Positions 48,861-62,174 of a stretch of DNA of 64,000 bases are shown here, piece by piece. Source of the DNA: Xenorhabdus bovienii SS-2004 (GTDB lineage: Bacteria; Pseudomonadota; Gammaproteobacteria; Enterobacterales; Enterobacteriaceae). Both the position numbers and the translations under genes were made by a program. Numbering within the stretch: position 1 is the first letter of the stretch; each line of letters opens with the position of its first letter. The notes under the pieces are model-generated. The model was not told the DNA's origin. It did no database searches and saw only the letters and a list, made by a program, of their open reading frames with translations. The stretch spans positions 2,046,001-2,110,000 of the forward strand of contig NC_013892.1 in assembly GCF_000027225.1 (NCBI RefSeq), written 5' to 3'.

Positions 48861-49004
48861 GGTATGTGTATAGTTATATGCTAAATAGCAATCGCGTTTT
48901 CTTATTTATCTGCGTTTGGTTATTTTAAATGAGTTTTGTCAAATAATACGACTAAATAGGATAATGATGAACGAAAAAATACTTTTAGTTACAGGCTCTA
49001 GTCG

Positions 49005-49786
49005 GGTCATGTATTAAATGGTTAGTTGCTGTGATATGCTTCCGGCTTTTTAAGGATGAAGTATGGCCAAAGTTGATGTCTATTGCCGTTATTGCCACAA
49101 ATCAGAACAGGTCAAAGGACATGGGAAAGGAAATGGCGGACATCCTCGTTATCGCTGTTATAGCTGCTGTAAGGTCTTTCAGTTGGCGTATACCTATCAG
49201 GCCTGCAAACCCGGCGTTAAAGAACAGATTGTCGATATCGCGATGAATAACGGGGGAATTCGTGACACCGCTCGGATCCTGAAAGTCGCCACCGCCACCG
49301 TCATGAAAACATTAAAAACCTCAGACCCCGAAACGTAACGACACTTCCCCTTGCGGAATGTGGCATCCAGATTGTCTGTGAAATCGACGAGCAATGGTCG
49401 TTTGTCGGCAATAAGAAAAACCAACGCTGGCTTTGGTATGCTTGGGAACCCCGCCTGAAGCGAATAGTGGCTCATGTTTTTGGCGATCGCAGTCGAAAAA
49501 CGTTAGACAAGCTGCTTACCCTCTTATCTTCCTTTACTATTCGGTTTTACTGCACGGATGACTATGTTGTTTATGACCCACTTCCCGAGGAAGAGCACTT
49601 GACTGGAAAGGCGTTTACTCAGCGTATAGAGAGAACGAATTTAACGCATCGTACCCGAATCAAAAGGCTGAATAGAAAAACCATTGGGTATTCAAAATCG
49701 GAAGAAATGCACGATAAAGTGATAGGAACCTTTATTGAACGTGAACATTATTTTTAATACCTAATCTAATCATTTAATACATGACC
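49005..49786 (+). mobile_element. IS1-family element, copy C (782 bp)
   Basis: Ends are identical to copies A and B, in the opposite orientation. A perfect 8-bp target duplication, TCTAGTCG, lies at 48997-49004 and 49787-49794. The exact duplication and intact host frame on both sides indicate a very recent insertion. Confidence 0.95.
49063..49757 (+). CDS. insAB: IS1 transposase InsAB' (frameshift product), copy C
   Basis: InsA is 49063-49338. The catalytic frame is -1 and open from 49266 to 49757, joined near the A5 run at 49314-49318. The deduced fusion passes through LPLAECGIQIVCEIDEQWSFVGNK into MAHVFGDRSRK. The protein is identical to copy B. Confidence 0.9.
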
Positions 49787-50637
49787 TCTAGTCGAGGTAT
49801 TGGAGCGGCTACCGCTATACTGGCAGCAAATAAAGGATATTCTATATGTTTAAATTATTTAAACGATGAAAAGTCTGCGTTTAAAGTCCGTGATGAGATT
49901 CTAAATCTGGGTGCCAAATGTATCACTGTACGTGCTGACGTTTCCAATGAGCATCAAGTAAAAAAAATGTTCGACGACATTGATACTCAGTTAGGAAGTA
50001 TTACTCACCTTGTCAATAATGTTGGGATCTTAAAACAAAAAATGCCCTTAATTGATATGGATGGGGAACGATTTCAACAAGTACTATTGACCAATGTAAT
50101 GAGTCATTTTTATTGCTCTTCTGAGGCGATTAAGCGTATGTCGATTTCTAGAGGAGGCTCTGGAGGTTCAATTGTTAACGTTTCATCAGGTGCATCGAAA
50201 AGTGGCTCACCTTTCGAATACATTGATTATGCTGCGTCGAAAGGTGCAGTTGATACCTTTACTACAGGATTATCTAAAGAAGTCGCCGCTGACGGCATAC
50301 GAGTCAACTGCGTTCGTCCGGGAGGCATTTACACCGATATCCATGCTGATGGAGGCGAACCTTCTAGAGTTGATCGTATTGCCAAGAATTTCCCGATGCA
50401 AAGAGGTGGAACGCCTGAAGAGGTTGCAAATGCGATTCTTTGGCTACTTAGTGACGAAGCTTCATTCGTGACTGGAAGCTTTACAGACTTATGCGGTGGT
50501 TTATAAATTGGAAACTAACTTAGCAGCTCTCCAGAATGAAATTAACAGTGAGCAGATGTGTTCAAGGTGAAGGGTTAGATACCACAGAGATATCAGATTT
50601 TAACTGGGTCATTGCCCCTATAGACGGGGCTAGAAAG

Positions 50638-50875
50638 TTTAGTTTTTTTCATATAATTACCCTAGAATGTTAATGACTGTAACAGTGATCTGTTCGGGTT
50701 AAATGATGAATCGAGCAATACCTTCTTGATGCCCGCTTTAAACTGCTACATTATCAGTTGCAGCGTGATGAGTTTCATCCAAGTTCATTTGATGATAAAG
50801 ATCAAGTTTTTTTAATGAATCCTCTGTTCCTTGACCAGTAATTTGTCCTAGACGATTGGTAATATCTTGTAAAGA
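50638..50875. repeat. Relic of the GFA/HDO gene junction
   Basis: Bases 50638-~50712 match 55893-55965, covering the GFA start codon and the end of the diiron-protein gene; the remainder to 50875 matches about 56058-56225 inside that gene, with about 90 bases deleted between. Several substitutions are seen. Nothing here could be expressed as a whole protein. Bases 50507-50637 hold only a GCCCC/GGGGC hairpin. Confidence 0.85.
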
Positions 50876-50956
50876 TTAATATGGAAATCATTACTCCGGT
50901 AACATATTTTCTAATTTAGCAATTAATCTGTGATTGATCCTTGAGGAGATAGAATA

Positions 50957-51775
50957 ATGGTTGCTACACATGATGATATTCAGACCCGTTATGCCAATAT
51001 TTCAGTTCTCGATACTGGTGGAAGTGGGCTGCCAGTGCTCCTGATACATGGTAATTCAAGCTGTAAAGAAATTTTTCGTCATCAAATTGAATATTTAAAA
51101 GGGGACTATCGGGTTCTGGCATTGGATTTACCCGGCCACGGTAAATCTTCTGACGCCAGCGATCCGCGTGAAGCATACTCAATGCCCGGTTATGCCCGCA
51201 CCATCATGGAAGTACTGGATAAGATGGACATTGATAAAGTCGTAGTCTTTGGCTGGTCACTCGGGGGGCATATTGGGTTGGAAATGCTGGCACTGAATCC
51301 TAAAATGATCGGGCTGATGATTTGTGGCACGCCGCCAGTGGCCGTTGGGAAAGAGAATATAGCCCGTGGTTTTTGTCAGAGCAAACAGATGAGACTGACC
51401 GGTAAAGCGGAATTTACTGACGAGGATGTCAGAAACTTTGCCTGTGAGACAAACGGCGTCAATGCACCTCATGAACCGTTTATGATAGAAGCCGTGGCAA
51501 GAACAGACGGGTTAGCTCGGCAATATATGTTTGAAGCTTTTATTTCCCCTCAGGCGACAGATCAGAAATTATTGGCTGAAACCAGTGAAGTTCCTTTGGC
51601 TATCGTCAATGGTGTCGGTGATCCTTTCATTAATCACGATTATATTAATGGATTAAATTATAGAAACCTTTGGCAAGGCCAGGTGTTTAACTTGGCCGGC
51701 GTTGATCATGCGCCATTCTGGGAAGCACCAGATATTTTTAACCCGATTCTGGCTGAATTTTTAAAAGATCTTTAA
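50957..51775 (+). CDS. Alpha/beta-hydrolase, copy 1
   Basis: The 272-residue protein has the alpha/beta-hydrolase triad: Ser in VFGWSLGGHIGLE (~99), Asp in VNGVGDPFINHDYI and His in GVDHAPFWE. LLIHGNSSCKEIF supplies the oxyanion HG motif and LDLPGHGKS the usual strand-4 turn. No signal peptide is present. GGAGATAGA is the ribosome site. The substrate is unknown. It differs from copy 2 at one residue (Ala for Ser in FNLAGVDH). Its position beside the peptide-modification operon hints at a linked role. Confidence 0.88.
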   Translation: MVATHDDIQTRYANISVLDTGGSGLPVLLIHGNSSCKEIFRHQIEYLKGDYRVLALDLPGHGKSSDASDPREAYSMPGYARTIMEVLDKMDIDKVVVFGWSLGGHIGLEMLALNPKMIGLMICGTPPVAVGKENIARGFCQSKQMRLTGKAEFTDEDVRNFACETNGVNAPHEPFMIEAVARTDGLARQYMFEAFISPQATDQKLLAETSEVPLAIVNGVGDPFINHDYINGLNYRNLWQGQVFNLAGVDHAPFWEAPDIFNPILAEFLKDL

Positions 51776-51792
51776 TAGCCTGATGAGAGCCA

Positions 51793-51831
51793 GAGCGGGA
51801 ATTTTTTGTTTTATTTAAAGAAATTCCCGCT
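51793..51831 (+). terminator. Terminator of hydrolase copy 1
   Basis: AGCGGGAATTT and AAATTCCCGCT pair over 11 bp around a T-rich loop, 18 bases after the stop. The same structure follows copy 2. Confidence 0.75.
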
Positions 51832-51896
51832 ATTACAGGTATGTTGTTTTTTATTTAAAGGGTGATGCTGTTTCTAAATATTATTTTATTTAATCA

Positions 51897-52704
51897 CATT
51901 TAACGCCATTGGGTTAAAAAGCGCCATTTGTGCCGCGCCATCAGGGTCTTTGAGTGATAGAGCGTCTTCCCGAAAATACCCAATGCAGCTTGTTTTCCAC
52001 CGACCAGTGCCTTCTTATTGCCTTGGCGGCAATTTCCGCATCTAACGGGAGAGAGCTGACATACCAGCGTGAATCACGGCAGGAAGGTTGACCTTTCACA
52101 CTTCGTTTACTGACGATTTCAATCACACTTTGTATTGAAGGCCACTGTTGCTGAAGTTGCTCAGGTAATGCAGCACGGATTTGCATGACATGACGGAATT
52201 CTTTCCGTCCATGACTGCTATTTTTCTCTGTAAATTCAGCCCGTTCATCGTGGTCATAAGGTGCAGCAAAATGCGGTTTAACAAACTCATAGAATTTTTT
52301 TTGATTGCCTTTGAGGCCAACAATAAAATCCCCGCCTCGTTGGTTAATCAACCCAAGGGTTTCTTTCTGACAATGTAGGGCATCCATGGTGACAAGTGCA
52401 CCATCAAGAGCAAGTCATTTAATCAATTGCCTGGCAACCTAGCCTTCCTTACCTTTGCTTTCGGCGGCACAATGGCCGAGGGCAACACCCGATTCAACAT
52501 CATAAGCACTGACCACATGCAAGGCTTCAAACACTCTTTAAGCCATTCGATTTGTAACTCACCAAATTCTTGAATCGATTTCCAACCAGAAGCCCCACAT
52601 AACACAGCAGAAAAGGCTAAGAAAATCACATCCATTAGCTCATGTTTTTTATTGATGTCAGAACGTGGGTCATCTATCTTCCTGATAAAGTTAAAAATAC
52701 TCAT
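51897..52704 (-). pseudogene. ISAs1-family (H-repeat type) transposase relic, copy 1
   Basis: Starting MSIFNFIRKIDDPRSDINKKHELMDVIFL, it continues with GWKSIQEFGELQIEWLK. A frame break near 52420 leads into DALHCQKETLGLINQRGGDFIVGLKGNQ and RRHWSVENKLHWV. These are family signatures of H-repeat/YhhI-like proteins. Frameshifts and a small deletion near 51974 kill it. The following bases, 52717-52977, include a relic reading SIEAVAAGGGVILESTPNQK on the plus strand, also present at 48674. Confidence 0.85.
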
Positions 52705-52977
52705 TATTAAGATCACTGTTTATGGAATAATGTGATCTTACTGTTTTAATAATAGAAATGCTTATAAAAAGTCACGCCCTGATTTTTATTTAACATAAAT
52801 AACCCCATCAAAATGTGAGATCTCGCCCTGCTTCCAATCTCCATCGAAGCCGTCGCTGCCGGCGGCGGGGTAATATTGGAAAGCACACCGAACCAGAAAA
52901 CGAAAAAATGTGCCGCTAATGGCAAGACGTCCGGTTTAATTAATATGGGTGACACTGTCACGGAAACAACAATAAAC

Positions 52978-54579
52978 TTATTTTAAAAGCTGTTGCCAGA
53001 TATTAAGATACTTTTTTTGAACAAAAGGTGGGCACATGATCGAATGATCTGAATTTTTTAATACATGTTCAGGAATTTTAAGTTCAAGTGCATTTTTCAT
53101 CCATGAGGGTAAAAATTTATCAGCCCCTTCTATGGTACTGTCATAGCCATGAAATGCAGAATTCAATGCGGCATTCTCAGGTTGCATAATAAAATTAAGA
53201 AATAATCTGGCATTTTCATAATTTTTCGATCTTTTAAGAATGACAAGATTATCACTGAATATTAATACACCTTCACGCGGAAAGCCAAACTGAATATGAG
53301 AGTTAATTCTACGTTGACGCAACGCTGCACCATTCCAGTCAATACCTGCTTTAAATTTTCCCGAAGCCATCATATTGACACTACCATATTCCATTGCGGC
53401 CCAATGTTTTTTTGCTTCAAGTAAGGTCTTCTTAACTTTTTCAAGTAATTTAGGATTTGAGTCACATATTTTACCCCCATGATAGCGAATGGCCGCATAA
53501 ATAAGATCATTCATGTCTGAACCCACATTAATAGTACCAAATAATGATGTTGGCGGTTCTAAAACAACCTTCCATGTATTAATATCACCATCGTGAACAT
53601 CTGTATGGACGACAGTGCCAACAACGCCCCAAGACCAAGGAATACCATAAGTCCGTTGCGGATCAGCAGGAGATGAGCGCCATCGGGGGGTAATATTTTT
53701 GAAATTTGTCATTGACTGAACATTAATAGGTTGCAGAAGTCCGGCGTTTATCCAGTGAAGCAAAAAATTATCCGCTACAACAGCAAGGTCAGCATTAATT
53801 TTTCCAAGCTGAATGCTTTCTAATGCTTCTTCATTTGATTTGTATTCTAATAGAGTAATGCTGATATTATGCTCTTTTTTGAATTTTTGGAGCATCTCTG
53901 GACTTGTATAACTTTGCCAATTGTACAAAACCAGTGAACTTTCAGCCTTTGCTATTCCTGAATAAGTTAACGAGAATGAAAATAGTATCAGAATTACGGA
54001 TGATATCCGCAGAAAAATGGCAGTAAATCTACGTAAGTATTTATAGGAATGAATTAAGCTTCCGATAGATATCCATAATGTACCTATTGGTACTAAGATT
54101 AACAAAAAAATACCAAGCATAGGAAAAAAAGTATTCATAGATTTAAAAGTGCTTATCGGAATAAAAGTACTTACGAATAATAAGGCTTTTGGATTCAAAA
54201 ATGTGGCTACCATAACATCAAGGAAATTTGTACTTTTATGGGCGGAAATATTTATTAAATTCATCTGATTATCTGTAAAATAATCTATTTTTAAGCTATA
54301 CATCCATAATTTAAAAGCTAGCCACAATATATAAATCGCGGACAATAGCTTCACAAACTGGTATATCCAAGACAACGTCTGTGTCAGAGATAGCAAAAAA
54401 AATCCCCAAATTGCAATAGCCACTGTATATCCTATGGCTTCGGCAATAACGAGAATAAGAGATTTACTTAACCCTTGCTGTAACCCAGCTGATAAAAGTA
54501 AAGTATTTGTTGGCCCAGGAACGATTAAAACCAATGCGATAGAAAAGGCCATAATAAACCATTCATTGAATGTCACCAT
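52978..54579 (-). CDS. LysE/RhtB exporter fused to a PotD-like polyamine-binding domain
   Basis: One uninterrupted 533-residue frame holds two unrelated families. Residues 1-~205 are a LysE/RhtB amino-acid exporter (FSIALVLIVPGPTNTLLLSAG; about six membrane helices). The last helix (FLRISSVILILFSFSLTYSGIAKAESS) reads like a signal peptide with an AKA cleavage site. From ~213 on it is a periplasmic spermidine/putrescine-type binding protein (LVLYNWQSYTSPEMLQKFKKEHNI, YGIPWSWGVVGTVVHTD, FIMQPENAALNS). It may be cleaved to release the binding domain or kept as a tethered exporter accessory. It is the last gene of the operon, 36 bases after the synthetase-like gene. I know of no described protein with this arrangement. 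Confidence 0.85.
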   Translation of the reverse strand: MVTFNEWFIMAFSIALVLIVPGPTNTLLLSAGLQQGLSKSLILVIAEAIGYTVAIAIWGFFLLSLTQTLSWIYQFVKLLSAIYILWLAFKLWMYSLKIDYFTDNQMNLINISAHKSTNFLDVMVATFLNPKALLFVSTFIPISTFKSMNTFFPMLGIFLLILVPIGTLWISIGSLIHSYKYLRRFTAIFLRISSVILILFSFSLTYSGIAKAESSLVLYNWQSYTSPEMLQKFKKEHNISITLLEYKSNEEALESIQLGKINADLAVVADNFLLHWINAGLLQPINVQSMTNFKNITPRWRSSPADPQRTYGIPWSWGVVGTVVHTDVHDGDINTWKVVLEPPTSLFGTINVGSDMNDLIYAAIRYHGGKICDSNPKLLEKVKKTLLEAKKHWAAMEYGSVNMMASGKFKAGIDWNGAALRQRRINSHIQFGFPREGVLIFSDNLVILKRSKNYENARLFLNFIMQPENAALNSAFHGYDSTIEGADKFLPSWMKNALELKIPEHVLKNSDHSIMCPPFVQKKYLNIWQQLLK

Positions 54580-54615
54580 ATAATGATTTCCGATAAATAT
54601 TTCGTTATTTGAAAA

Positions 54616-55503
54616 TTAAAAAGGAGAAAACGGACGCGAAGTTGCAAATGCAGATATTTGTTTTTCTCCTAATGCAACTTGACATAATCTTTCTATACCA
54701 ATAGCAAATCCAGCGCTGGAAGGAGATACCAATTTATTTCTCATCATGGTACACATCACCTCATCTTCAGACCCAAACATGTTACGTTTCCGAGCCTGAG
54801 TTTCAAAACGCTCTACATCATCTTCGTCAGTATAACCATGAACAATTTCGATCCCATCAATCAAAATTTCGAAACGCTCGACGATTCCTTTTGTTCCTGT
54901 TCTTTTCTTTGCTCGTATCTCGGTGAGCAAAGGAAAATCCGTTACGATAATACAGCATTGTTGTGATAGAGGTTCAATATTCTCAATAATATAGCGATCA
55001 ATTAGATTTAGCGGGGGAGTTTTTTTGTCACAATACATTTCTCGTAAACAATCAATAAATATTTCGGGAGCGGAACAATCTTCAAAAAAGTCAACTAAAA
55101 ACCGTTGCTTAAGATGATCAGAAAACGATAATACACTTATTTTCCCTTGATAAAATATTTCTATTATTGATTGTGCAAGTTGAAGCATTTCATCAAGAGT
55201 AGAATCTTTTTTATATAAATCAAGCATTGTAAATTCTGGTAGGTGTGTATCATCCACTGTATCAGGCCGGAAACTAGGACCTATTTCATAGATACGATCA
55301 TAGAATTGAAGATTGTAGCGTAAGGCAAAAGCCGAAGACTCTCTTAGCCAACCTCCATTATGTAGCGAGAGTCGTGGACGAGAGTCATCACCAGAATAAC
55401 GGCGCATAACGGGAGTCATAATTTCAATAAATTTCTGAGAATCAAGAAAAGTGCGTATGCGGCGAATCATCGCCGCTTTATATAATATTGGAGAATTCAA
55501 CAT
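54616..55503 (-). CDS. Stand-alone class II aminoacyl-tRNA-synthetase-like protein (EpmA-like)
   Basis: The 295-residue protein consists of a class II catalytic core with no anticodon-binding OB domain. Motif 2 appears as EIGPSFRPDTVDDTHLPEFTMLDLY and motif 3 as GFAIGIERLCQVALG. The DDTHLPEFTML stretch is closest to Lys/Asp/Asn-type enzymes and to EpmA (PoxA/GenX), which attaches beta-lysine to a lysine of elongation factor P. A role in adenylating an amino acid and joining it to the operon's Lys-containing repeat peptide is my inference. The true EpmA of the host is expected elsewhere. It ends 36 bases before the next gene. Confidence 0.85.
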   Translation of the reverse strand: MLNSPILYKAAMIRRIRTFLDSQKFIEIMTPVMRRYSGDDSRPRLSLHNGGWLRESSAFALRYNLQFYDRIYEIGPSFRPDTVDDTHLPEFTMLDLYKKDSTLDEMLQLAQSIIEIFYQGKISVLSFSDHLKQRFLVDFFEDCSAPEIFIDCLREMYCDKKTPPLNLIDRYIIENIEPLSQQCCIIVTDFPLLTEIRAKKRTGTKGIVERFEILIDGIEIVHGYTDEDDVERFETQARKRNMFGSEDEVMCTMMRNKLVSPSSAGFAIGIERLCQVALGEKQISAFATSRPFSPF

Positions 55504-55518
55504 TTGCTTTTCTCTCTA

Positions 55519-55905
55519 TTAGGATTGAGTATCGATTTTCCACCAACGGGGGCGTGACGATATAAATGAATGTGAAACTGGGCGAAGGTTTTTTTTGTTT
55601 TTACTATCAAAATTACCTAATAGCAGTCCGACTGTTGGGCCATCGTCTATTGCTCCTAGAGAACTTCCACATTGTGAGCAAAAAGCACGACTAGAATAGT
55701 CGGAAGAACGAAATACAGAGGGAACGCCACCCGGCCCATTCCAGTGGACTGCGGCTTTCGGAAATTCAATCCAACATAGAGTCAATGCCCCAGAATGTTG
55801 CTGGCACATAGAGCAAGAACATGTATGAGGATTACCAGCCTCACCTGTCGCTATAAATCGGATATGACCACAAAGACACCCACCAGAAAATTCAATTTTT
55901 TTCAT
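55519..55905 (-). CDS. GFA-family zinc-binding protein
   Basis: The 128-residue protein shows the GFA/CENP-V zinc fold: GGCLCGHIRF, CSCSMCQQHSGAL and FCSQCGSSLG supply seven Cys in the family pattern. The family includes glutathione-dependent formaldehyde-activating enzyme and many uncharacterised members. In this operon it might handle a small aldehyde released by oxidative cleavage, or bind the peptide; both are inference. Spacing is 17 bases from the upstream gene and 15 to the next. Confidence 0.9.
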   Translation of the reverse strand: MKKIEFSGGCLCGHIRFIATGEAGNPHTCSCSMCQQHSGALTLCWIEFPKAAVHWNGPGGVPSVFRSSDYSSRAFCSQCGSSLGAIDDGPTVGLLLGNFDSKNKKNLRPVSHSFISSRPRWWKIDTQS

Positions 55906-55922
55906 ATAATTACCCTAAAATG

Positions 55923-56774
55923 TTAATGACTGTAACAGTGATCTGTTCGGGTTAAATGATGAATCTCAACCCACTGATCAACAAAAGGAGTAAGCATTTG
56001 AAGGAAGCCATCCACAATCTGGGGTTGCTGAAAATGGAATAGATCTGCATCCCTGATGAATCTAGCAATACCTTCTTGATGCCCGCGTTCAACTGCTACA
56101 TTATCAGTTGCAGCGCTATGAGTTTCATCCAAGTGCATTCGATAATAAAAATCAAGTTTTTTTAATGAATTTCCTGTTCCTCGACCAGTAATTTGTCCTA
56201 GACGATTGGTAATATCTTGTAAAAGTAGAGTTTCCGCGATAGCAATAGCTTCGGTTGCATAATACATGCCCAGTACCGTTGAAGGGCAATGAGACCACGT
56301 AAGTATGTCGATTAAAGAAATAAGAGCACGTGTTGAAGAAGTCCGTGGCATCCAGCCATTCACTCTAAAATTTACGTCCGCAATGAGTGCTCCGCTAAAA
56401 ACAACATAGTGGGCAGGTAACTTTCCTCGTTCTCCACCTTCTTCCAAAAAGTTTCGTGTTAATTCTTGAGCAAACTCAGGACAAAAACCACGAATATTAT
56501 CGGCTGCTCTTAATAACATAGTGGAATTGTAACGAGCAAATACAGAAAGCTCACCAATATATAATTTTGCTTCTTCCTGACTAAGATTTGATGGGTTTAT
56601 GAGATCTTTAATTTGATTATAAATAATTGTAATCATAGGATCTAAATGTTTATCAATTAGCTCATTTCCATCAATTTTTGCTTTTCCTTCACTAATAATA
56701 CTATTAATTAAATTTGCAGTAGAAATATTTTTATTCAGATAATCATCCACTAATGCTGGGAAATTTCTATACAT
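55923..56774 (-). CDS. Heme-oxygenase-like diiron (HDO-type) protein
   Basis: The 283-residue protein is all-helical, with FYYRMHLDETHSAATDN providing an H-x-D-x-x-H ligand set and upstream helices offering Glu (YIGELSVFARYN, YYATEAIAIAETLL). This resembles HDO-fold oxygenases/oxidases (CADD, BesC, SznF type), which use a labile diiron centre for C-C cleavage, N-oxidation or desaturation. Its substrate may be the repeat peptide or a free amino acid. AAGGA precedes ATG 56774. A partial relic of this gene lies at 50.7-50.9 kb. Confidence 0.75.
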   Translation of the reverse strand: MYRNFPALVDDYLNKNISTANLINSIISEGKAKIDGNELIDKHLDPMITIIYNQIKDLINPSNLSQEEAKLYIGELSVFARYNSTMLLRAADNIRGFCPEFAQELTRNFLEEGGERGKLPAHYVVFSGALIADVNFRVNGWMPRTSSTRALISLIDILTWSHCPSTVLGMYYATEAIAIAETLLLQDITNRLGQITGRGTGNSLKKLDFYYRMHLDETHSAATDNVAVERGHQEGIARFIRDADLFHFQQPQIVDGFLQMLTPFVDQWVEIHHLTRTDHCYSH

Positions 56775-56791
56775 TTTTTATTCCTTATTAA

Positions 56792-58063
56792 TTAATGACA
56801 GAATAAACCACCTGTGCCTATTAATATTTTCAGTGAGGTATAAACATCTTCAGAATGTATTGTAATGGGTTGTCGAGTATTAAGTGTATCCAAAAGCTTT
56901 AAAGTCTCAGAACTGGCAGGTAATATTACACTTTTTGTTGCAATAAATACGCGAATTTCATCAGAAGAACAATTTAATCCATGCTCGTAACTAACAATAA
57001 ATGGAGCCTGTAATGATACTTGAGAATCAGGATTAATGATTAAATCATTTTGATGTTCGGGTTCCTTTAATGGATCTGCACTTATAGTCGTAGGTAGTTC
57101 CCATCCTCCGTTACTACGAAGTCGATGCCAGTAATAGTGTAAGTATTTCGGTAGATCTTGTTGGAACCATTTATTTATTGTTTCTGTTAAAAGAGTTGAG
57201 AGTGGTTCTATATCAAATTGATTATTATCAAATTTAATTAATTCTGACATGCCTTCTTGATCAAAGGGAAGCGATTGTTCACTGAGAGCAGGAAGTATTT
57301 TTAATGCCATAAAACGCGACAATGGATAAGTATAAAATGGCAGTGCAATTGATACCGAAAATTCTTCTTGACGACCGACATGATAAACTGATGCTGGTAA
57401 ATACAAGGCATCACCCGGCTTAAGTATATAAAGCGTTCCTTTTTCTATTAATTTATCATATAGTTCTGAATCTGAGAACGTGGGTTCGCGTGAGCCAGTT
57501 ATTTCCAAATAAAGTTCTCTTGACCAACAATAAAAATACTTAATACCCGGTCCTAAATGACACAAAAATGCATGTTCAAAACCTTCGTGTATACCAAAAG
57601 CAGTACCAGAATAATTGCCACAAAAAGTTGCTTGTTCTATTCCACCAATAGGAATACCTTTATAAGCAAAGAAAGATTGCGCAAATAAGCCGAAATCAGC
57701 TGCTAGCTTTGGACAAGATTGCTCAAGGTTATTAATCACTAAACTGAAACGCTCTTTTCCACTTAATCGTTGCATGAAATGTGTCAACGTTTCATCCGAT
57801 AATATGGTTTCAGATGATAATTTTTCGACAAGATCATCACGACGTTTTTCACCATCATAGATACGCAAGCGGCAATCAGTTTTTAGTAAATTAGATTTAC
57901 TGCATAAATTATAAAATGCATCTTTAACAGTTTCATGATTGGAAAACCCCTCATTTAAAGGAAGAACTGACTGGAAAAGAAAAGGTGTCTTTCCATAATT
58001 TGTTTTTTGATCAAATCCTTCCCAAACTTCTTTGTGAAAATCAATTGTCATATTTTTATCCAT
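56792..58063 (-). CDS. JmjC/cupin-type Fe(II)/2-oxoglutarate oxygenase-like protein
   Basis: From ATG 58063 the protein has about 423 residues. A double-stranded beta-helix core shows GIHEGFEHAFLCHLGPG with an H-x-E-type ligand pair, then LKPGDALYLPASVYHVGRQEE with the distal His. This is the metal triad arrangement of cupin_8/JmjC hydroxylases such as YcfD (RoxA), which hydroxylates an Arg in ribosomal protein L16. The repeat peptide upstream has an Arg in every unit, making it an attractive target; that is inference. Starts at 58063 and 58051 are both possible. The frame also runs upstream through the intergenic hairpin. Confidence 0.75.
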   Translation of the reverse strand: MDKNMTIDFHKEVWEGFDQKTNYGKTPFLFQSVLPLNEGFSNHETVKDAFYNLCSKSNLLKTDCRLRIYDGEKRRDDLVEKLSSETILSDETLTHFMQRLSGKERFSLVINNLEQSCPKLAADFGLFAQSFFAYKGIPIGGIEQATFCGNYSGTAFGIHEGFEHAFLCHLGPGIKYFYCWSRELYLEITGSREPTFSDSELYDKLIEKGTLYILKPGDALYLPASVYHVGRQEEFSVSIALPFYTYPLSRFMALKILPALSEQSLPFDQEGMSELIKFDNNQFDIEPLSTLLTETINKWFQQDLPKYLHYYWHRLRSNGGWELPTTISADPLKEPEHQNDLIINPDSQVSLQAPFIVSYEHGLNCSSDEIRVFIATKSVILPASSETLKLLDTLNTRQPITIHSEDVYTSLKILIGTGGLFCH

Positions 58064-58093
58064 TTCGTTTGTGAATGTTTTGAATATAGACAA

Positions 58094-58114
58094 TAAGCCA
58101 GCTATAAGCTGGCT
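58094..58114 (-). promoter_or_regulatory. Hairpin between precursor-peptide gene and oxygenase gene
   Basis: AAGCCAGCT and AGCTGGCTT form a perfect 9-bp stem with a 3-base loop, 20 bases after the peptide stop, and are not followed by a long T run. A partial terminator at this point would let the peptide be made in excess over its enzymes, as in many RiPP operons. Confidence 0.65.
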
Positions 58115-58133
58115 TACATAACTAATTATTGAT

Positions 58134-58292
58134 TTAGTCAATAATAGCATCAGGACGAACACCTGTTTTCAAAGCGTCGGGACGAACACCTGTTTTTAGA
58201 GCGTCAGAACGAACACCTGTTTTCAAAGCATCGGGGCGAACACCGGATTTTAAGGCATCAGGACGAACACCGGATTTTATAGAACTATTCAT
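58134..58292 (-). CDS. Repeat precursor peptide, 5 x K[S/T]GVR[P/S]DA[L/I]
   Basis: GGAGG five bases before ATG 58292 opens a 52-residue frame: a five-residue start MNSSI, then KSGVRPDAL twice, KTGVRSDAL, KTGVRPDAL and KTGVRPDAI, ending ID. Codons for the same residue vary between units (CGT/CGC, CCT/CCC, GAT/GAC, TTA/TTG/CTA), so the peptide rather than the DNA has been conserved. It is first in a six-gene minus-strand operon with two oxygenase-type enzymes, a synthetase-like protein and a transporter. This fits a multi-core RiPP precursor with almost no leader, although another repeat-peptide function is possible. The frame is short enough that automated annotation may skip it. Confidence 0.8.
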   Translation of the reverse strand: MNSSIKSGVRPDALKSGVRPDALKTGVRSDALKTGVRPDALKTGVRPDAIID

Positions 58293-58505
58293 ATAGCCTC
58301 CATAATATAGAGTTGTTGTGTTTTATTAATTAAATGATTTTAATATTACGAGATAATCCTCGCAAAACATAATTTGGCATCATATTTACAATAAATCAAC
58401 TTACGATTAATTTATTTCACCTACAAATTTATATGACATTCAGTAAATAATCACTGAGTTAAATGAAAGAAATTTTTATTTTAATTTTTTAATATATTGA
58501 TATAT
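58293..58505 (-). promoter_or_regulatory. Upstream region of the repeat-peptide operon
   Basis: This AT-rich interval must contain the operon promoter unless it lies within or beyond IS630. I cannot choose a -35/-10 pair with confidence. An imperfect palindrome CGAGGATTATCTCG lies near 58350-58363, about 60 bases before the start codon. Confidence 0.4.
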
Positions 58506-59610
58506 ATACCCGTCGTCATTGAAGATGCTTGATTTTTCATTTGTATCAGATCATGATTGCGCCCATGAAAATTAATCTAACAGATGCCCAAAAAGACGCC
58601 CTCGAATTGATGCATGATACGACTCGCGATGGACGAGTACGTGACCGCATCAAGGCCGTGCTTTTGGCCTCAGAAGGCTGGACTGCCCAGATGATTGCTC
58701 AGGCTTTGCGGATCCATGAAAGTACGGTGAGCCGCCATCTGAAAGATTACTTCTCTGAGGAAAAACTCGCCCCTGAAAATGGGGGCTCTGAAAGCCGTTT
58801 GTCTGCCGAACAAACAACAGAATTAGTTGAGTATCTGATGGCAAATTTGATGCACACTACCGCACAAATTGTGGCCTATGTTCGGGCACGATGGCAGGTG
58901 ACTTTCACTGTCGCAGGAATGACGAAATGGCTTCACCGTCAAGGTTTCAGCTACAAGAAGCCAATGGGTGCTCCGCATAAATTTGATGCGGATAAACAGC
59001 AACAGTTTATTGAAACCTACAACGCGCTGAAAGAAGAATGTGGCCAGAATGCGCCTATTTTATTTATTGATGCGGTTCACCCGACCCTGTCCACAAAATT
59101 AAGTTATGGCTGGATGAAGAGCGGGCGGAAGCACGTCAAAGTGGTTGAAACCACAGGCAGTCGTACTCGACTCAACATCATGGGTGCCCTTAATTTACAA
59201 CGGATTGAAGAGACTATTGTTCGTGAATATCCGACGATTAACGCGAAAAATGTCGTCCTTTTTTTCGGCTCAATCCGGGAAACCTATCCACTTTCGCAAA
59301 AAATCCACATTATTCTGGATGGTGCGGGTTATCACCGTTCCGGAGTCGTCCAATTTTTTGCCGAGGTTTTGAATATTGAGTTGCACTACCTGCCGCCTTA
59401 CAGCCCTAATCTCAACCCGATTGAGCGATTATGGAAGTATGTGAATGAGCAGGTACGAAACAATGTCTATTTTCCGGATACCAAAACATTCCGTGAAACG
59501 CTGCGCCACTTTTTTCATGTCACATTGCCAGAAAAAGCGAAAGAACTCACCACTCGGTTGACTGATAACTTCCAGATTTTAAAACCCGCATCTTCAAGTT
59601 AATTGCGTAT
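58506..59610 (+). mobile_element. Intact IS630-family element
   Basis: The left end reads ATACCCGTCGTCATTGAAG and the right end, inward, ATACGCAATTAACTTGAAG; both continue ATGC. TA lies at both outer edges, the expected IS630 target. It sits just upstream of the repeat-peptide operon, so it may have altered that promoter. Confidence 0.85.
58565..59602 (+). CDS. IS630-family DDE transposase
   Basis: The 345-residue protein from ATG 58565 has an N-terminal helix-turn-helix (MIAQALRIHESTVSRHLKDYF). The catalytic triad is Asp in ILFIDAVHPT, Asp in IILDGAGYHRS and Glu in YSPNLNPIERLWKYV. No stops interrupt it. An in-frame start at 58529 lies inside the terminal region and was not used. Confidence 0.93.
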   Translation: MKINLTDAQKDALELMHDTTRDGRVRDRIKAVLLASEGWTAQMIAQALRIHESTVSRHLKDYFSEEKLAPENGGSESRLSAEQTTELVEYLMANLMHTTAQIVAYVRARWQVTFTVAGMTKWLHRQGFSYKKPMGAPHKFDADKQQQFIETYNALKEECGQNAPILFIDAVHPTLSTKLSYGWMKSGRKHVKVVETTGSRTRLNIMGALNLQRIEETIVREYPTINAKNVVLFFGSIRETYPLSQKIHIILDGAGYHRSGVVQFFAEVLNIELHYLPPYSPNLNPIERLWKYVNEQVRNNVYFPDTKTFRETLRHFFHVTLPEKAKELTTRLTDNFQILKPASSS

Positions 59611-60106
59611 ATGCTGAATAATATTATTTTAATCATTAGATATTCAAATAAGTCAAAAGATAATTTTTGTTGATAAAAATTATCAAAGGATATTTTAAGC
59701 TTTTAAATATCCTTTTTAGTTGTAAATCCATATTTAAGTTGATTGTAAAAACTCAATCAGAACATTATGTTTATTTTTAATTAAATTATTTTATTTTATT
59801 TTATTTTATTTTATTTTATTTTGCAATTTTAATAAATATTTTAATTTTTCATGATAAGTTAATTTCCTAATATATTATTTTATTTACTAGATTATAACAG
59901 TGATTTTCATGAAAAATTAAGATTTAGGGCAGTTAAAGTATTAAAGCTGGCATGGTATAGTTTATTATCCGATGTAATCAAGTAATCAAGATTTTTAAGC
60001 CAATGAATGGGAATAAAATTGCCTCTTTCATGTATCGCTACTGTCAGTGGGGGAGTTTTTAGAGCCCCCATTAAAAACCATTTTTAATGATATAAATAAA
60101 TTATAT
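59611..60106. other. AT-rich spacer with ATTTT microsatellite
   Basis: No gene is visible. A TTATT/ATTTT run of about seven units lies at 59785-59822. A GGGGGAG...GCCCCC inverted repeat near 60049-60070 may be a weak terminator. The long direct repeat begins at 60107. Confidence 0.7.
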
Positions 60107-60188
60107 ATTAATATGGAAATCATTACTCCGGTAACATATTTTCTAATTTAGCAATTAATCTGTGATTGATCCTTGAGGAGATAGAATA

Positions 60189-61007
60189 ATGGTTGCTACA
60201 CATGATGATATTCAGACCCGTTATGCCAATATTTCAGTTCTCGATACTGGTGGAAGTGGGCTGCCAGTGCTCCTGATACATGGTAATTCAAGCTGTAAAG
60301 AAATTTTTCGTCATCAAATTGAATATTTAAAAGGGGACTATCGGGTTCTGGCATTGGATTTACCCGGCCACGGTAAATCTTCTGACGCCAGCGATCCGCG
60401 TGAAGCATACTCAATGCCCGGTTATGCCCGCACCATCATGGAAGTACTGGATAAGATGGACATTGATAAAGTCGTAGTCTTTGGCTGGTCACTCGGGGGG
60501 CATATTGGGTTGGAAATGCTGGCACTGAATCCTAAAATGATCGGGCTGATGATTTGTGGCACGCCGCCAGTGGCCGTTGGGAAAGAGAATATAGCCCGTG
60601 GTTTTTGTCAGAGCAAGCAGATGAGACTGACCGGTAAAGCGGAATTTACTGACGAGGATGTCAGAAACTTTGCCTGTGAGACAAACGGCGTCAATGCACC
60701 TCATGAACCGTTTATGATAGAAGCCGTGGCAAGAACAGACGGGTTAGCTCGGCAATATATGTTTGAAGCTTTTATTTCCCCTCAGGCGACAGATCAGAAA
60801 TTATTGGCTGAAACCAGTGAAGTTCCTTTGGCTATCGTCAATGGTGTCGGTGATCCTTTCATTAATCACGATTATATTAATGGATTAAATTATAGAAACC
60901 TTTGGCAAGGTCAGGTGTTTAACTTGTCCGGTGTTGATCATGCGCCATTCTGGGAAGCACCAGATATTTTTAACCCGATTCTGGCTGAATTTTTAAAAGA
61001 TCTTTAA
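60189..61007 (+). CDS. Alpha/beta-hydrolase, copy 2
   Basis: The 272-residue protein is identical to copy 1 except Ser for Ala in FNLSGVDH. All catalytic motifs (GWSLGGH, GDPFINHDY, VDHAPFW) are kept, and the ribosome site and upstream region are identical. Having two functional copies bracketing the operon suggests that either the hydrolase dose matters or the duplication is recent. Confidence 0.88.
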   Translation: MVATHDDIQTRYANISVLDTGGSGLPVLLIHGNSSCKEIFRHQIEYLKGDYRVLALDLPGHGKSSDASDPREAYSMPGYARTIMEVLDKMDIDKVVVFGWSLGGHIGLEMLALNPKMIGLMICGTPPVAVGKENIARGFCQSKQMRLTGKAEFTDEDVRNFACETNGVNAPHEPFMIEAVARTDGLARQYMFEAFISPQATDQKLLAETSEVPLAIVNGVGDPFINHDYINGLNYRNLWQGQVFNLSGVDHAPFWEAPDIFNPILAEFLKDL

Positions 61008-61024
61008 TAGCCTGATGAGAGCCA

Positions 61025-61062
61025 GAGCGGGAATTTTTGTTTTATTTAAAGAAATTCCCGCT
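61025..61062 (+). terminator. Terminator of hydrolase copy 2
   Basis: Same AGCGGGAATTT/AAATTCCCGCT stem as after copy 1, with one T fewer in the loop. Confidence 0.75.
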
Positions 61063-61124
61063 ATTACAGGTATGTTGTTTTTTATTTAAAGGGTGATGCT
61101 GTTTCTAAATATTATTTTATTTAA

Positions 61125-61741
61125 TCACATTTAACGCCATTCGGTTAAAAAGCACCATTTGTGCCGCGCCATCAGGGTCTTTGAGTGATAGAGCGTCTTC
61201 CCTAAAAGTGACATCCAATACCCAATGCAGCTTGTTTTCCACCGACCAGTGCCTTCTTATTGTCTTGGCGGCAATTTCCGCATCTAACGGGAGAGAGCTG
61301 ACATACCAGCGTGAATCACGGCAGGAAGGTTGATCTTTCACACTTCGTTTACTGACGACTTCAATCACACTTTGTATTGAAGGCCACTGTTGCTGAAGTT
61401 GCTCAGGTAATGCAGCACGGATTTGCATGACATGACGGAATTCTTTCCGTCCATGACTGCTATTTTTCTCTGTAAATTCAGCCCGTTTATCGTGGTCATA
61501 AGGTGCAGCAAAATGCGGTTTAACAAACTCATAGAATTTTTTTGATTACCTTTGAGGCCAACAATAAAATCCCCGCCTCGTTGGTTAATCAACCCAAGGG
61601 TTTCTTTCTGACAATGTAGGGCATCCATGGTGACAAGTGCACCATCAAGAGCAAGTCATTTAATCAATTGCCTGGCAACCGAGCCTTCCTTACCTTTGCT
61701 TTCGGCGGCACAATGGTCGAGGGCAACACCCGATTCAACAT
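61125..61741 (-). pseudogene. ISAs1-family transposase relic, copy 2
   Basis: The C-terminal part RRHWSVENKLHWVLDVTFREDALSLKDPDGAAQMVLFNRMALNVIK is better preserved than in copy 1. A frameshift near 61545 (one T missing in a T run) separates it from DALHCQKETLGLINQRGGDF, and the N-terminal third is absent. It is therefore inactive. Confidence 0.85.
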
Positions 61742-61745
61742 CATA

Positions 61746-62174
61746 ATGCTACAGCCGTAATCCATATTGTGCCATGATAGGGCTTTTGGAAAATCTAGGT
61801 TTTAGTCCCGCTCTGTCCTGACGATTGACTGAATAGAATAGTCGGTTTCGTGCATGGCATCATTCCCGATAGATTGTGATAGTCCGTTAGTATATCTATA
61901 TCTATATCTATATATATCTAATATCATTTGCACCCTGAATAGTATTGGATTGTTTTTAGTGAGAATAATCTGAATTTTCTCATTTTTATTTGTTTTTTTA
62001 TTTTAATTTTTAATTGCAAATTCCACATTCTATTTGTTTAGTGTATCTTTATTAGTTCAAATTTTGTCAGATTTATTCATTTAGTTTATATGCTATTTTT
62101 TATGGATAAATTTATATTTATTTCTTAAATGCTCAAAAAATACATTCTCAAGGATAATTAATATTGGTCTAATT
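61746..62174. other. Spacer upstream of the inverse autotransporter, with a TATATC microsatellite
   Basis: No gene is visible. A run of TATATC/TATCTA units lies at about 61889-61921. The next ~240 bases are strongly AT-rich, as expected for a surface-protein promoter; AGGATAATT lies upstream of ATG 62175. Confidence 0.6.

Follow-up and report, generated by a model that had tools for sequence, protein, structure and literature searches.

A six-gene operon of Xenorhabdus bovienii built on a nonapeptide-repeat peptide points to an undescribed RiPP-like pathway

Gene content of the operon

We analyzed a 64,000-nucleotide stretch of Xenorhabdus bovienii SS-2004 (contig NC_013892.1, positions 2,046,001 to 2,110,000; hereafter the window) and focused on an operon at window positions 52978..58292, which begins with a gene for a short repeat peptide. 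The initial annotation had described six closely spaced minus-strand genes in this order, and all of these open reading frames (ORFs) are present as stated, with gaps of 70, 17, 17, 15, and 36 nt from the peptide gene to the last gene. It had read the operon as a pathway for a ribosomally synthesized and post-translationally modified peptide (RiPP), with the repeat peptide as precursor.

The peptide gene (58134..58292, minus strand) is preceded by GGAGG ahead of its ATG and encodes 52 residues, namely MNSSI, the five nine-residue periods KSGVRPDAL, KSGVRPDAL, KTGVRSDAL, KTGVRPDAL, and KTGVRPDAI, and a final ID, giving the unit consensus K[S/T]GVR[P/S]DA[L/I]. A hairpin of 11 pairs with a weak T tail (58093..58117, minus strand) lies directly 3' of the gene. 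A promoter scan stayed at the level of shuffled sequences (29 versus a mean of 28.0).

The second gene (56792..58063, minus strand) encodes a JmjC/cupin-type protein with HxG in place of HxD; its start may be the ATG at 58063 or that at 58051, and the frame stays open upstream as far as a GTG at 58162. It is followed on the same strand by a DUF3865, CADD-like probable member of the heme-oxygenase-like diiron oxidases (HDO; 55923..56774), a protein of the glutathione-dependent formaldehyde-activating family (GFA; 55519..55905), an EpmA/lysyl-tRNA synthetase (LysRS)-core-like class II ligase without an anticodon domain (54616..55503), and a fusion of a LysE-type transporter with a PotD-like binding domain (52978..54579). 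The Pfam scores clear their cut-offs for DUF3865 on the HDO (35.0 bits, cut-off 31.6), GFA (65.2 bits, cut-off 24.3), tRNA-synt_2 on the ligase (105.5 bits, cut-off 25), and both LysE (35.4 bits, cut-off 25.6) and SBP_bac_8 (61.8 bits, cut-off 27) on the fusion protein. In the cupin protein, both JmjC_2 (19 bits, cut-off 22) and Cupin_8 (16 bits, cut-off 27.4) fall below threshold. Overall, Pfam and NCBIfam agree with the gene names first given, except that JmjC_2 lies under its cut-off and the ligase scores far under the EpmA equivalog cut-off.

The repeat peptide and its enzymes in three phyla

The same operon, with five-unit peptides and the same LysE-PotD fusion, is found in X. bovienii T228 and X. 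budapestensis, which carry the labels L001 and L002 in our locus numbering; plasmid loci are labeled likewise. The window HDO and its X. bovienii T228 counterpart share 97% identity. Among 30 genomes of the genus, four have HDO matches, three of them near full length (the window's own included) and one over 31 residues. The EpmA-like gene is present at 78% identity or more in the same three genomes, and genome G018 holds a remnant of it with stops. A search of 5.8 billion proteins returned 97 relatives of the cupin, with named sources that include Xenorhabdus, Pseudomonas, Sinorhizobium, Rhizobium, Streptomyces, Actinoplanes, and Micromonospora, as well as 162 relatives of the HDO (120 of them listed) and three short repeat peptides (P0098-P0100), two of which have degenerate units. 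A phage origin found no support, as no HDO relative occurred in phage records or viral contigs.

Nineteen plasmid records matched the cupin, and the 14 that matched over at least 80% of its length were all fetched. A repeat peptide of 4 to 10 KxGxRP units is encoded in 13 of these 14 records, two from Nostoc and 11 from Streptomyces. The peptide of the Nostoc carneum plasmid has four intact units of LKTGVRPDG, and that of Nostoc commune has four units of LK[A/V]GVRPDA. The unit number of the 11 Streptomyces peptides ranges from 4 to 10, with sequences such as LKAGMRPDA or VKLGMRPG; for Streptomyces sp. F2 (L017), the units fall in two different frames. Where annotated, the peptide genes are labeled "hypothetical protein" in the plasmid records. 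Likewise, 16 plasmid records matched the HDO, 12 of them over at least 80% of its length, and all 12 contain both cupin and peptide; the Streptomyces NBC_01201 locus (L016) has cupin and peptide with no intact HDO annotated. GFA accompanies the cupin in 10 of the 14 plasmid loci and the EpmA-like gene in 12. In the Streptomyces loci L013 and L017, the place after the HDO where GFA would be expected is taken by a 126-nt ORF and a gene for an integrase or recombinase. A Pantoea agglomerans plasmid (L071 6908-7575) retains the tail of an HDO along with a GFA gene, the remnant of a like operon.

The initial annotation had named beforehand the co-occurrence of repeat peptides with the oxygenase and diiron proteins as the observation on which its RiPP-like reading would stand or fall, and the peptides do accompany these proteins in three phyla, at 13 of 14 cupin and 12 of 12 HDO plasmid loci. 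The arrangement by which RiPP pathways are recognized, a short encoded precursor with linked modifying enzymes, was thus found at 13 of the 14 plasmid cupin loci and at the three Xenorhabdus loci. The same data bear on a different account, in which the peptide has a function of its own (for instance, in metal binding or as an antimicrobial) and the enzymes either travel along as co-mobile passengers or act elsewhere. Such an account would suit the mobile setting, in which transposases and a degraded duplicate lie near the operon and homologues are located on plasmids, but the neighbors stay the same across three phyla and no signal peptide is evident by inspection in the 52 residues. We therefore regard it as very unlikely and retain the peptide as the presumed substrate of its neighbors.

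The repeat unit is confined to these genes. Across six-frame translations of the window and 72 loci, which span about 1.2 million codons, a frame carrying at least two K.G.R[PS] units was seen nowhere but at peptide genes (22 rows from 16 distinct loci, some of them represented twice). In a collection of 85 units matching K.G.R[PS][DGY], Pro occupies its position in 84 and Asp in 72, while the invariance of K, G, and R is built into the pattern and is not an independent result. Silent codon differences between units of the same gene outnumber replacements in all 14 genes that have differences (for example, 14 versus 10 in the window and 58 versus 21 in Streptomyces BB1-1-1); these are pairwise unit comparisons that are not independent of each other, and the split L017 peptide was left out. 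The Nostoc carneum units are identical and offer no codon differences to count. The excess of silent differences implies that the protein, rather than a DNA repeat, is being kept.

A stable hairpin follows the peptide gene at all five loci folded (window, L001, L002, L009, and L010), with z values of -3.0 to -4.3 relative to shuffles and -4.30 in the window; the folding covered the Xenorhabdus and Nostoc loci. Where a hairpin separates a precursor gene from the genes of its enzymes, more peptide than enzyme can be made, and the one at 58093..58117 may set a high peptide-to-enzyme ratio. A small ORF at the head of an operon with a hairpin directly behind it could also be a leader peptide whose repeated codons sense an amino acid, with the hairpin as terminator. 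However, the amino acids are kept across phyla while synonymous codons vary, unit number ranges from 4 to 10, the Streptomyces peptide gene is internal to its cluster, and Rfam gave no match in window positions 49000-62000, all of which makes attenuation highly improbable.

Active sites of the enzymes and the accessory genes

The cupin alignment comprised 76 sequences (the window protein, 61 of the 97 listed homologues, and 14 plasmid proteins). His159, Gly161, Glu163, His169, and His228 are present in all 76, and Lys175, which we take to be the 2-oxoglutarate (2OG)-binding residue, in 75. The sole member without Lys175 is the L012 protein, which also comes from the sole plasmid cupin locus without a peptide. 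The window motif H159-x-G161...K175...H228 therefore has Gly at the iron-binding Asp position of HxD. In an HHalign comparison with 30 Xenorhabdus YcfD-like sequences, which had been chosen by a pattern requiring HxD, His159 fell on the motif His and Gly161 on the Asp (E 1.3e-4 for this single comparison, probability 53%). The change can be read directly from sister proteins of Pantoea and Klebsiella, which share a gap-free stretch with the window protein and have FGIHLDKEHTF or FGIHKDQEHTF where it has FGIHEGFEHAF; both sister proteins examined keep the Asp. By these alignments, which bear on sequence and not on metal geometry, the iron site of the cupin lineage is predicted to have lost its Asp. 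Glu163, at the fourth position after the motif His, was considered as a substitute metal ligand and judged less likely because both HxD sister proteins also have this Glu.

The initial annotation had proposed YcfD-like hydroxylation of Arg. While the jellyroll motifs of YcfD/RoxA Arg hydroxylases align with the cupin, the HxD...H iron triad of YcfD is absent, as Gly replaces the Asp in 76 of 76 sequences, and the alignments do not support this assignment. YcfD-like proteins recognized by the JmjC_2 model are present in all 30 genus genomes. HxG or HxA is the mark of 2OG-dependent halogenases such as SyrB2 and BesD, and the halogenase pattern, HxG/A...H with a candidate 2OG-binding residue, was found in the aligned cupins. 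BesD is itself an HxG-type halogenase, though not one known to be annotated as JmjC/cupin_8.

The Pantoea and Klebsiella cupins (H15-H19) were considered as members and set aside, since neither of the two loci fetched (L014 and L015) encodes a KxGxRP peptide and both show HxD and an arginase; on sequence features, they are classed as a sister family only. These Klebsiella and Pantoea plasmids encode similar peptides of 57 to 65 residues with GGGG and a GRDR[R/S]DTGH tail (L014 6150-6323 and L015 6125-6322), which adjoin the arginase and two JmjC/cupin proteins in what looks like a different RiPP-like cluster.

The best solved relative of the HDO profile is the CADD-like structure PDB 3b5o (E 2.3e-11). 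Glu104, Glu111, Glu112, His122, Glu175, Glu181, His214, Asp216, Glu229, and His232 are present in 73 of 73 sequences, a set that included the window protein and 60 of the 120 listed homologues (162 found). The HDO metal set consists of three His and three carboxylates (PMC13108848). The invariant residues would be enough for such a set, with the acids as candidate ligands. A relationship to BesC did not emerge, as the profile search of PDB to E 5 returned 3b5o and three unrelated chains only. HDOs act in peptide pathways, as indicated by MboA of mangotoxin, which has a Leu-Ala-Arg substrate (PMC13185094), and by VarO of the thiovarsolins, a suggested dehydrogenase on Arg (PMC6511847). In GFA, the motifs GGCxCG, CxCxxC, and CxxC are complete in 13 of 13 aligned sequences, and its link to formaldehyde comes only from the family name.

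The ligase is 24 to 28% identical to the EpmA proteins (EF-P lysine aminoacylases) of the genus. It scored 119.4 bits against the EpmA equivalog TIGR00462, far under the cut-off of 286.9, which makes it EpmA-like rather than EpmA; the EpmA of the same genome scored 436.2, and NCBIfam identifies both this genuine EpmA and LysS in the window genome. The class II core with motifs 2 and 3 is common to EpmA, LysRS, and the ligase, which keeps motif 2 FR[P/S] with its Arg and motif 3 G[IM]ERL. Compared with EpmA and LysS of the same genome, four pocket residues are changed in all 12 EpmA-like proteins aligned (from 15 available loci): Glu becomes Asp in the [M/L]xLY stretch, and N-G-F-x-E becomes H-G-Y-x-D. 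These positions bind the lysine in LysRS and are numbered Glu278, Asn424, Phe426, and Glu428 in LysU. With both acids shortened, the pocket may accommodate a basic side chain that is longer or modified. The EpmA-type addition first proposed for the unit Lys is possible, but the altered amino acid pocket makes plain lysine an unlikely donor.

The accessory genes differ between hosts. The Streptomyces loci add a TauD-type oxygenase, a desaturase, an arginine deiminase family protein, and a nitroreductase by Pfam, as well as an annotated amidinotransferase and an annotated cation:proton antiporter; the amidinotransferase of L011 has no Pfam match, and its name rests on the record annotation. In these clusters, the peptide gene sits between the divergent EpmA-like and TauD genes and the desaturase gene. 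Nostoc commune adds an ornithine/diaminopimelate/arginine-decarboxylase-family protein, an LVIVD-repeat protein, and a 307-residue protein without a Pfam match, whereas Nostoc carneum adds a glutamine amidotransferase and an AMP-binding reductase.

The unit is unchanging while the accessory enzymes vary, and several of these enzymes are of types that handle basic amino acids; this fits either core steps at Lys and Arg or a carrier, in which the peptide would be a reusable, unmodified scaffold, the EpmA-like ligase would load a free amino acid on the Lys of each unit, the oxidases and accessory enzymes would act on that amino acid, and the product would be cut off. EpmA itself acylates a protein Lys, the ligase retains its motif residues, the EpmA-like gene is frequent in the plasmid loci, and the unit is nearly the same from Xenorhabdus to Nostoc and Streptomyces, all of which speak for a carrier. 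However, no EpmA-like gene is annotated in the 19-kb Nostoc carneum region, whose plasmid is not among the 40 of 82 hits listed, no release enzyme was identified, and the peptide's own Lys or Arg may just as well be what the cupin and the HDO modify. We consider a carrier role unlikely, although it deserves to be kept in view, and prefer a peptide that is itself modified.

Proposed pathway, related systems, and surroundings

The sequences show directly that the repeat peptide is conserved and genetically linked to the enzymes, that a hairpin follows its gene, and which active-site residues are kept or changed; from these observations we infer the chemistry. The operon probably encodes a RiPP-like pathway on a leaderless multi-unit peptide, in which the enzymes oxidize or ligate at Lys or Arg and the product is exported. 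Each unit would present Lys, Gly, and Arg-Pro (KxGxRP) to the enzymes of the operon, and the JmjC/cupin enzyme and the HDO would oxidize the side chains of Lys and/or Arg. GFA would take up formaldehyde freed by oxidative carbon–carbon cleavage, the EpmA-like ligase would add an amino acid using ATP, and a basic small product or short peptide would be released and exported by LysE-PotD. We predict with high confidence that the repeat peptide is the enzyme substrate, and Lys and Arg are its likely modification targets, while export by LysE-PotD has about an even chance. Release of formaldehyde at the HDO step is plausible yet somewhat doubtful, and it is similarly tentative that the EpmA-like protein would acylate a peptide Lys rather than the released product.

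Several observations weigh against this pathway, beyond the K, G, and R invariance that the unit pattern imposes. The peptide has no leader, only a short start ahead of the first unit, and Pfam identified no protease among the six operon proteins. On the Streptomyces NBC_00445 plasmid (L012), the cupin occurs with neither peptide nor HDO, and re-examination found no further genes of the system annotated there. An orphan EpmA-like gene (37.6%) lies on a Vibrio lentus plasmid (L072 7351-8322) with two ABC transporter genes nearby. A domain like the RiPP recognition element at the cupin C terminus was unsupported, as the comparison with the YcfD C terminus gave a probability of 0.8%. The system is also rare in the genomes sampled: a single one of 369 genomes from the class had the cupin, and a single genome matched the HDO profile among 398 from the phylum and among 394 from the order. 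Each time this was the window's own genome, and the samples overlap. Moreover, the accessory enzymes vary by phylum, and the products may vary with them. Despite these points, the predicted RiPP-like biosynthesis is well supported, and the data suggest a family of modified ribosomal peptides that has yet to be described.

The nearest published system is that of the thiovarsolins (var cluster, PMC6511847), which likewise combines a repeating precursor with an HDO (VarO, with suggested Arg desaturation) and includes an amidinotransferase, an enzyme also annotated in our Streptomyces loci. However, thiovarsolins are thioamidated by YcaO-TfuA, the core within the repeats is APR rather than KxGxRP, and the seven-gene set that suffices includes no JmjC/cupin, GFA, or EpmA-like gene. 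YcaO-TfuA was found neither among the six operon proteins nor in the annotation of the 14 plasmid neighborhoods. In the biphenomycin cluster, the JmjC enzyme BipG hydroxylates an ornithine of a RiPP precursor, also a basic residue, but that cluster uses an MNIO, a radical SAM enzyme, and an arginase where the operon has HDO, GFA, and EpmA-like proteins (PMC12707348).

The beta-ethynylserine (Bes) pathway similarly pairs an HxG-type 2OG enzyme, the halogenase BesD, with an HDO, BesC. BesC cuts 4-chlorolysine between C4 and C5 to give 4-chloro-allylglycine, ammonia, and formaldehyde (PMC13108848). A formaldehyde by-product of this kind would explain GFA. The Bes pathway acts on free Lys, whereas the HDO here is of the DUF3865/CADD-like type and the presumed substrate is a peptide. 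Together, the HxG cupin, the HDO, and GFA suggest analogous chemistry on a peptide, where a Lys or Arg would first be halogenated and its side chain then cleaved oxidatively. In its most specific form, this would be a new RiPP class in which the HxG JmjC-type enzyme chlorinates the unit Lys (or Arg), the DUF3865 HDO cleaves it with loss of formaldehyde, GFA captures the formaldehyde, and the EpmA-derived ligase adds a basic amino acid; the full sequence of steps is speculative, and we think it improbable as a whole. If true, it would be a ribosomal-peptide version of Bes chemistry, in which each peptide would give rise to several copies of small amino acids that are halogenated or unsaturated, and, to our knowledge, the cupin would be the first JmjC-lineage halogenase.

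No report of this repeat-peptide and enzyme family was found among the matches listed in open-access PMC, with subscription papers outside the scope, and the motif letters gave no match there. The earlier statement that no known RiPP class has this enzyme set agrees with this literature, in which the nearest remark is that some bacterial JmjC homologues occur in RiPP-like contexts (PMC12710340). In open-access PMC, the term DUF3865 matched one paper, a Pseudomonas putida design study, and the operon gives this family a genetic context. It adds a RiPP-like family that can be recognized by a short repeated motif and is common to Gammaproteobacteria, Cyanobacteria, and Streptomyces, and presents a case of a tRNA synthetase-like ligase recruited beside a peptide precursor. 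In addition, the Asp-less cupin lineage makes peptide halogenation by JmjC-type enzymes directly testable.

The operon lies among repeated and mobile DNA. Part of it, from the GFA start to the HDO end, has a decayed second copy at 50632..50873 (minus strand), in two pieces of 81 nt at 95% and 170 nt at 92% identity to the operon. A direct duplication (50870-52505 and 60102-61746, 97 to 99% identical and about 9.23 kb apart) brackets the operon and includes an alpha/beta hydrolase gene. A DDE_3 (IS630-like) transposase gene is located at 58529-59602, upstream of the peptide gene, and on this side DNA similarity to X. bovienii is kept for about 200 nt. Together with the rarity in the genome samples and the plasmid locations, the nearby transposases and the decayed copy indicate that the operon probably spreads horizontally and is often lost. 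Elsewhere in the window, positions 6635-33234 hold a large minus-strand cluster that, from gene names given by inspection, looks like a type VI secretion system and includes a PAAR-like protein.

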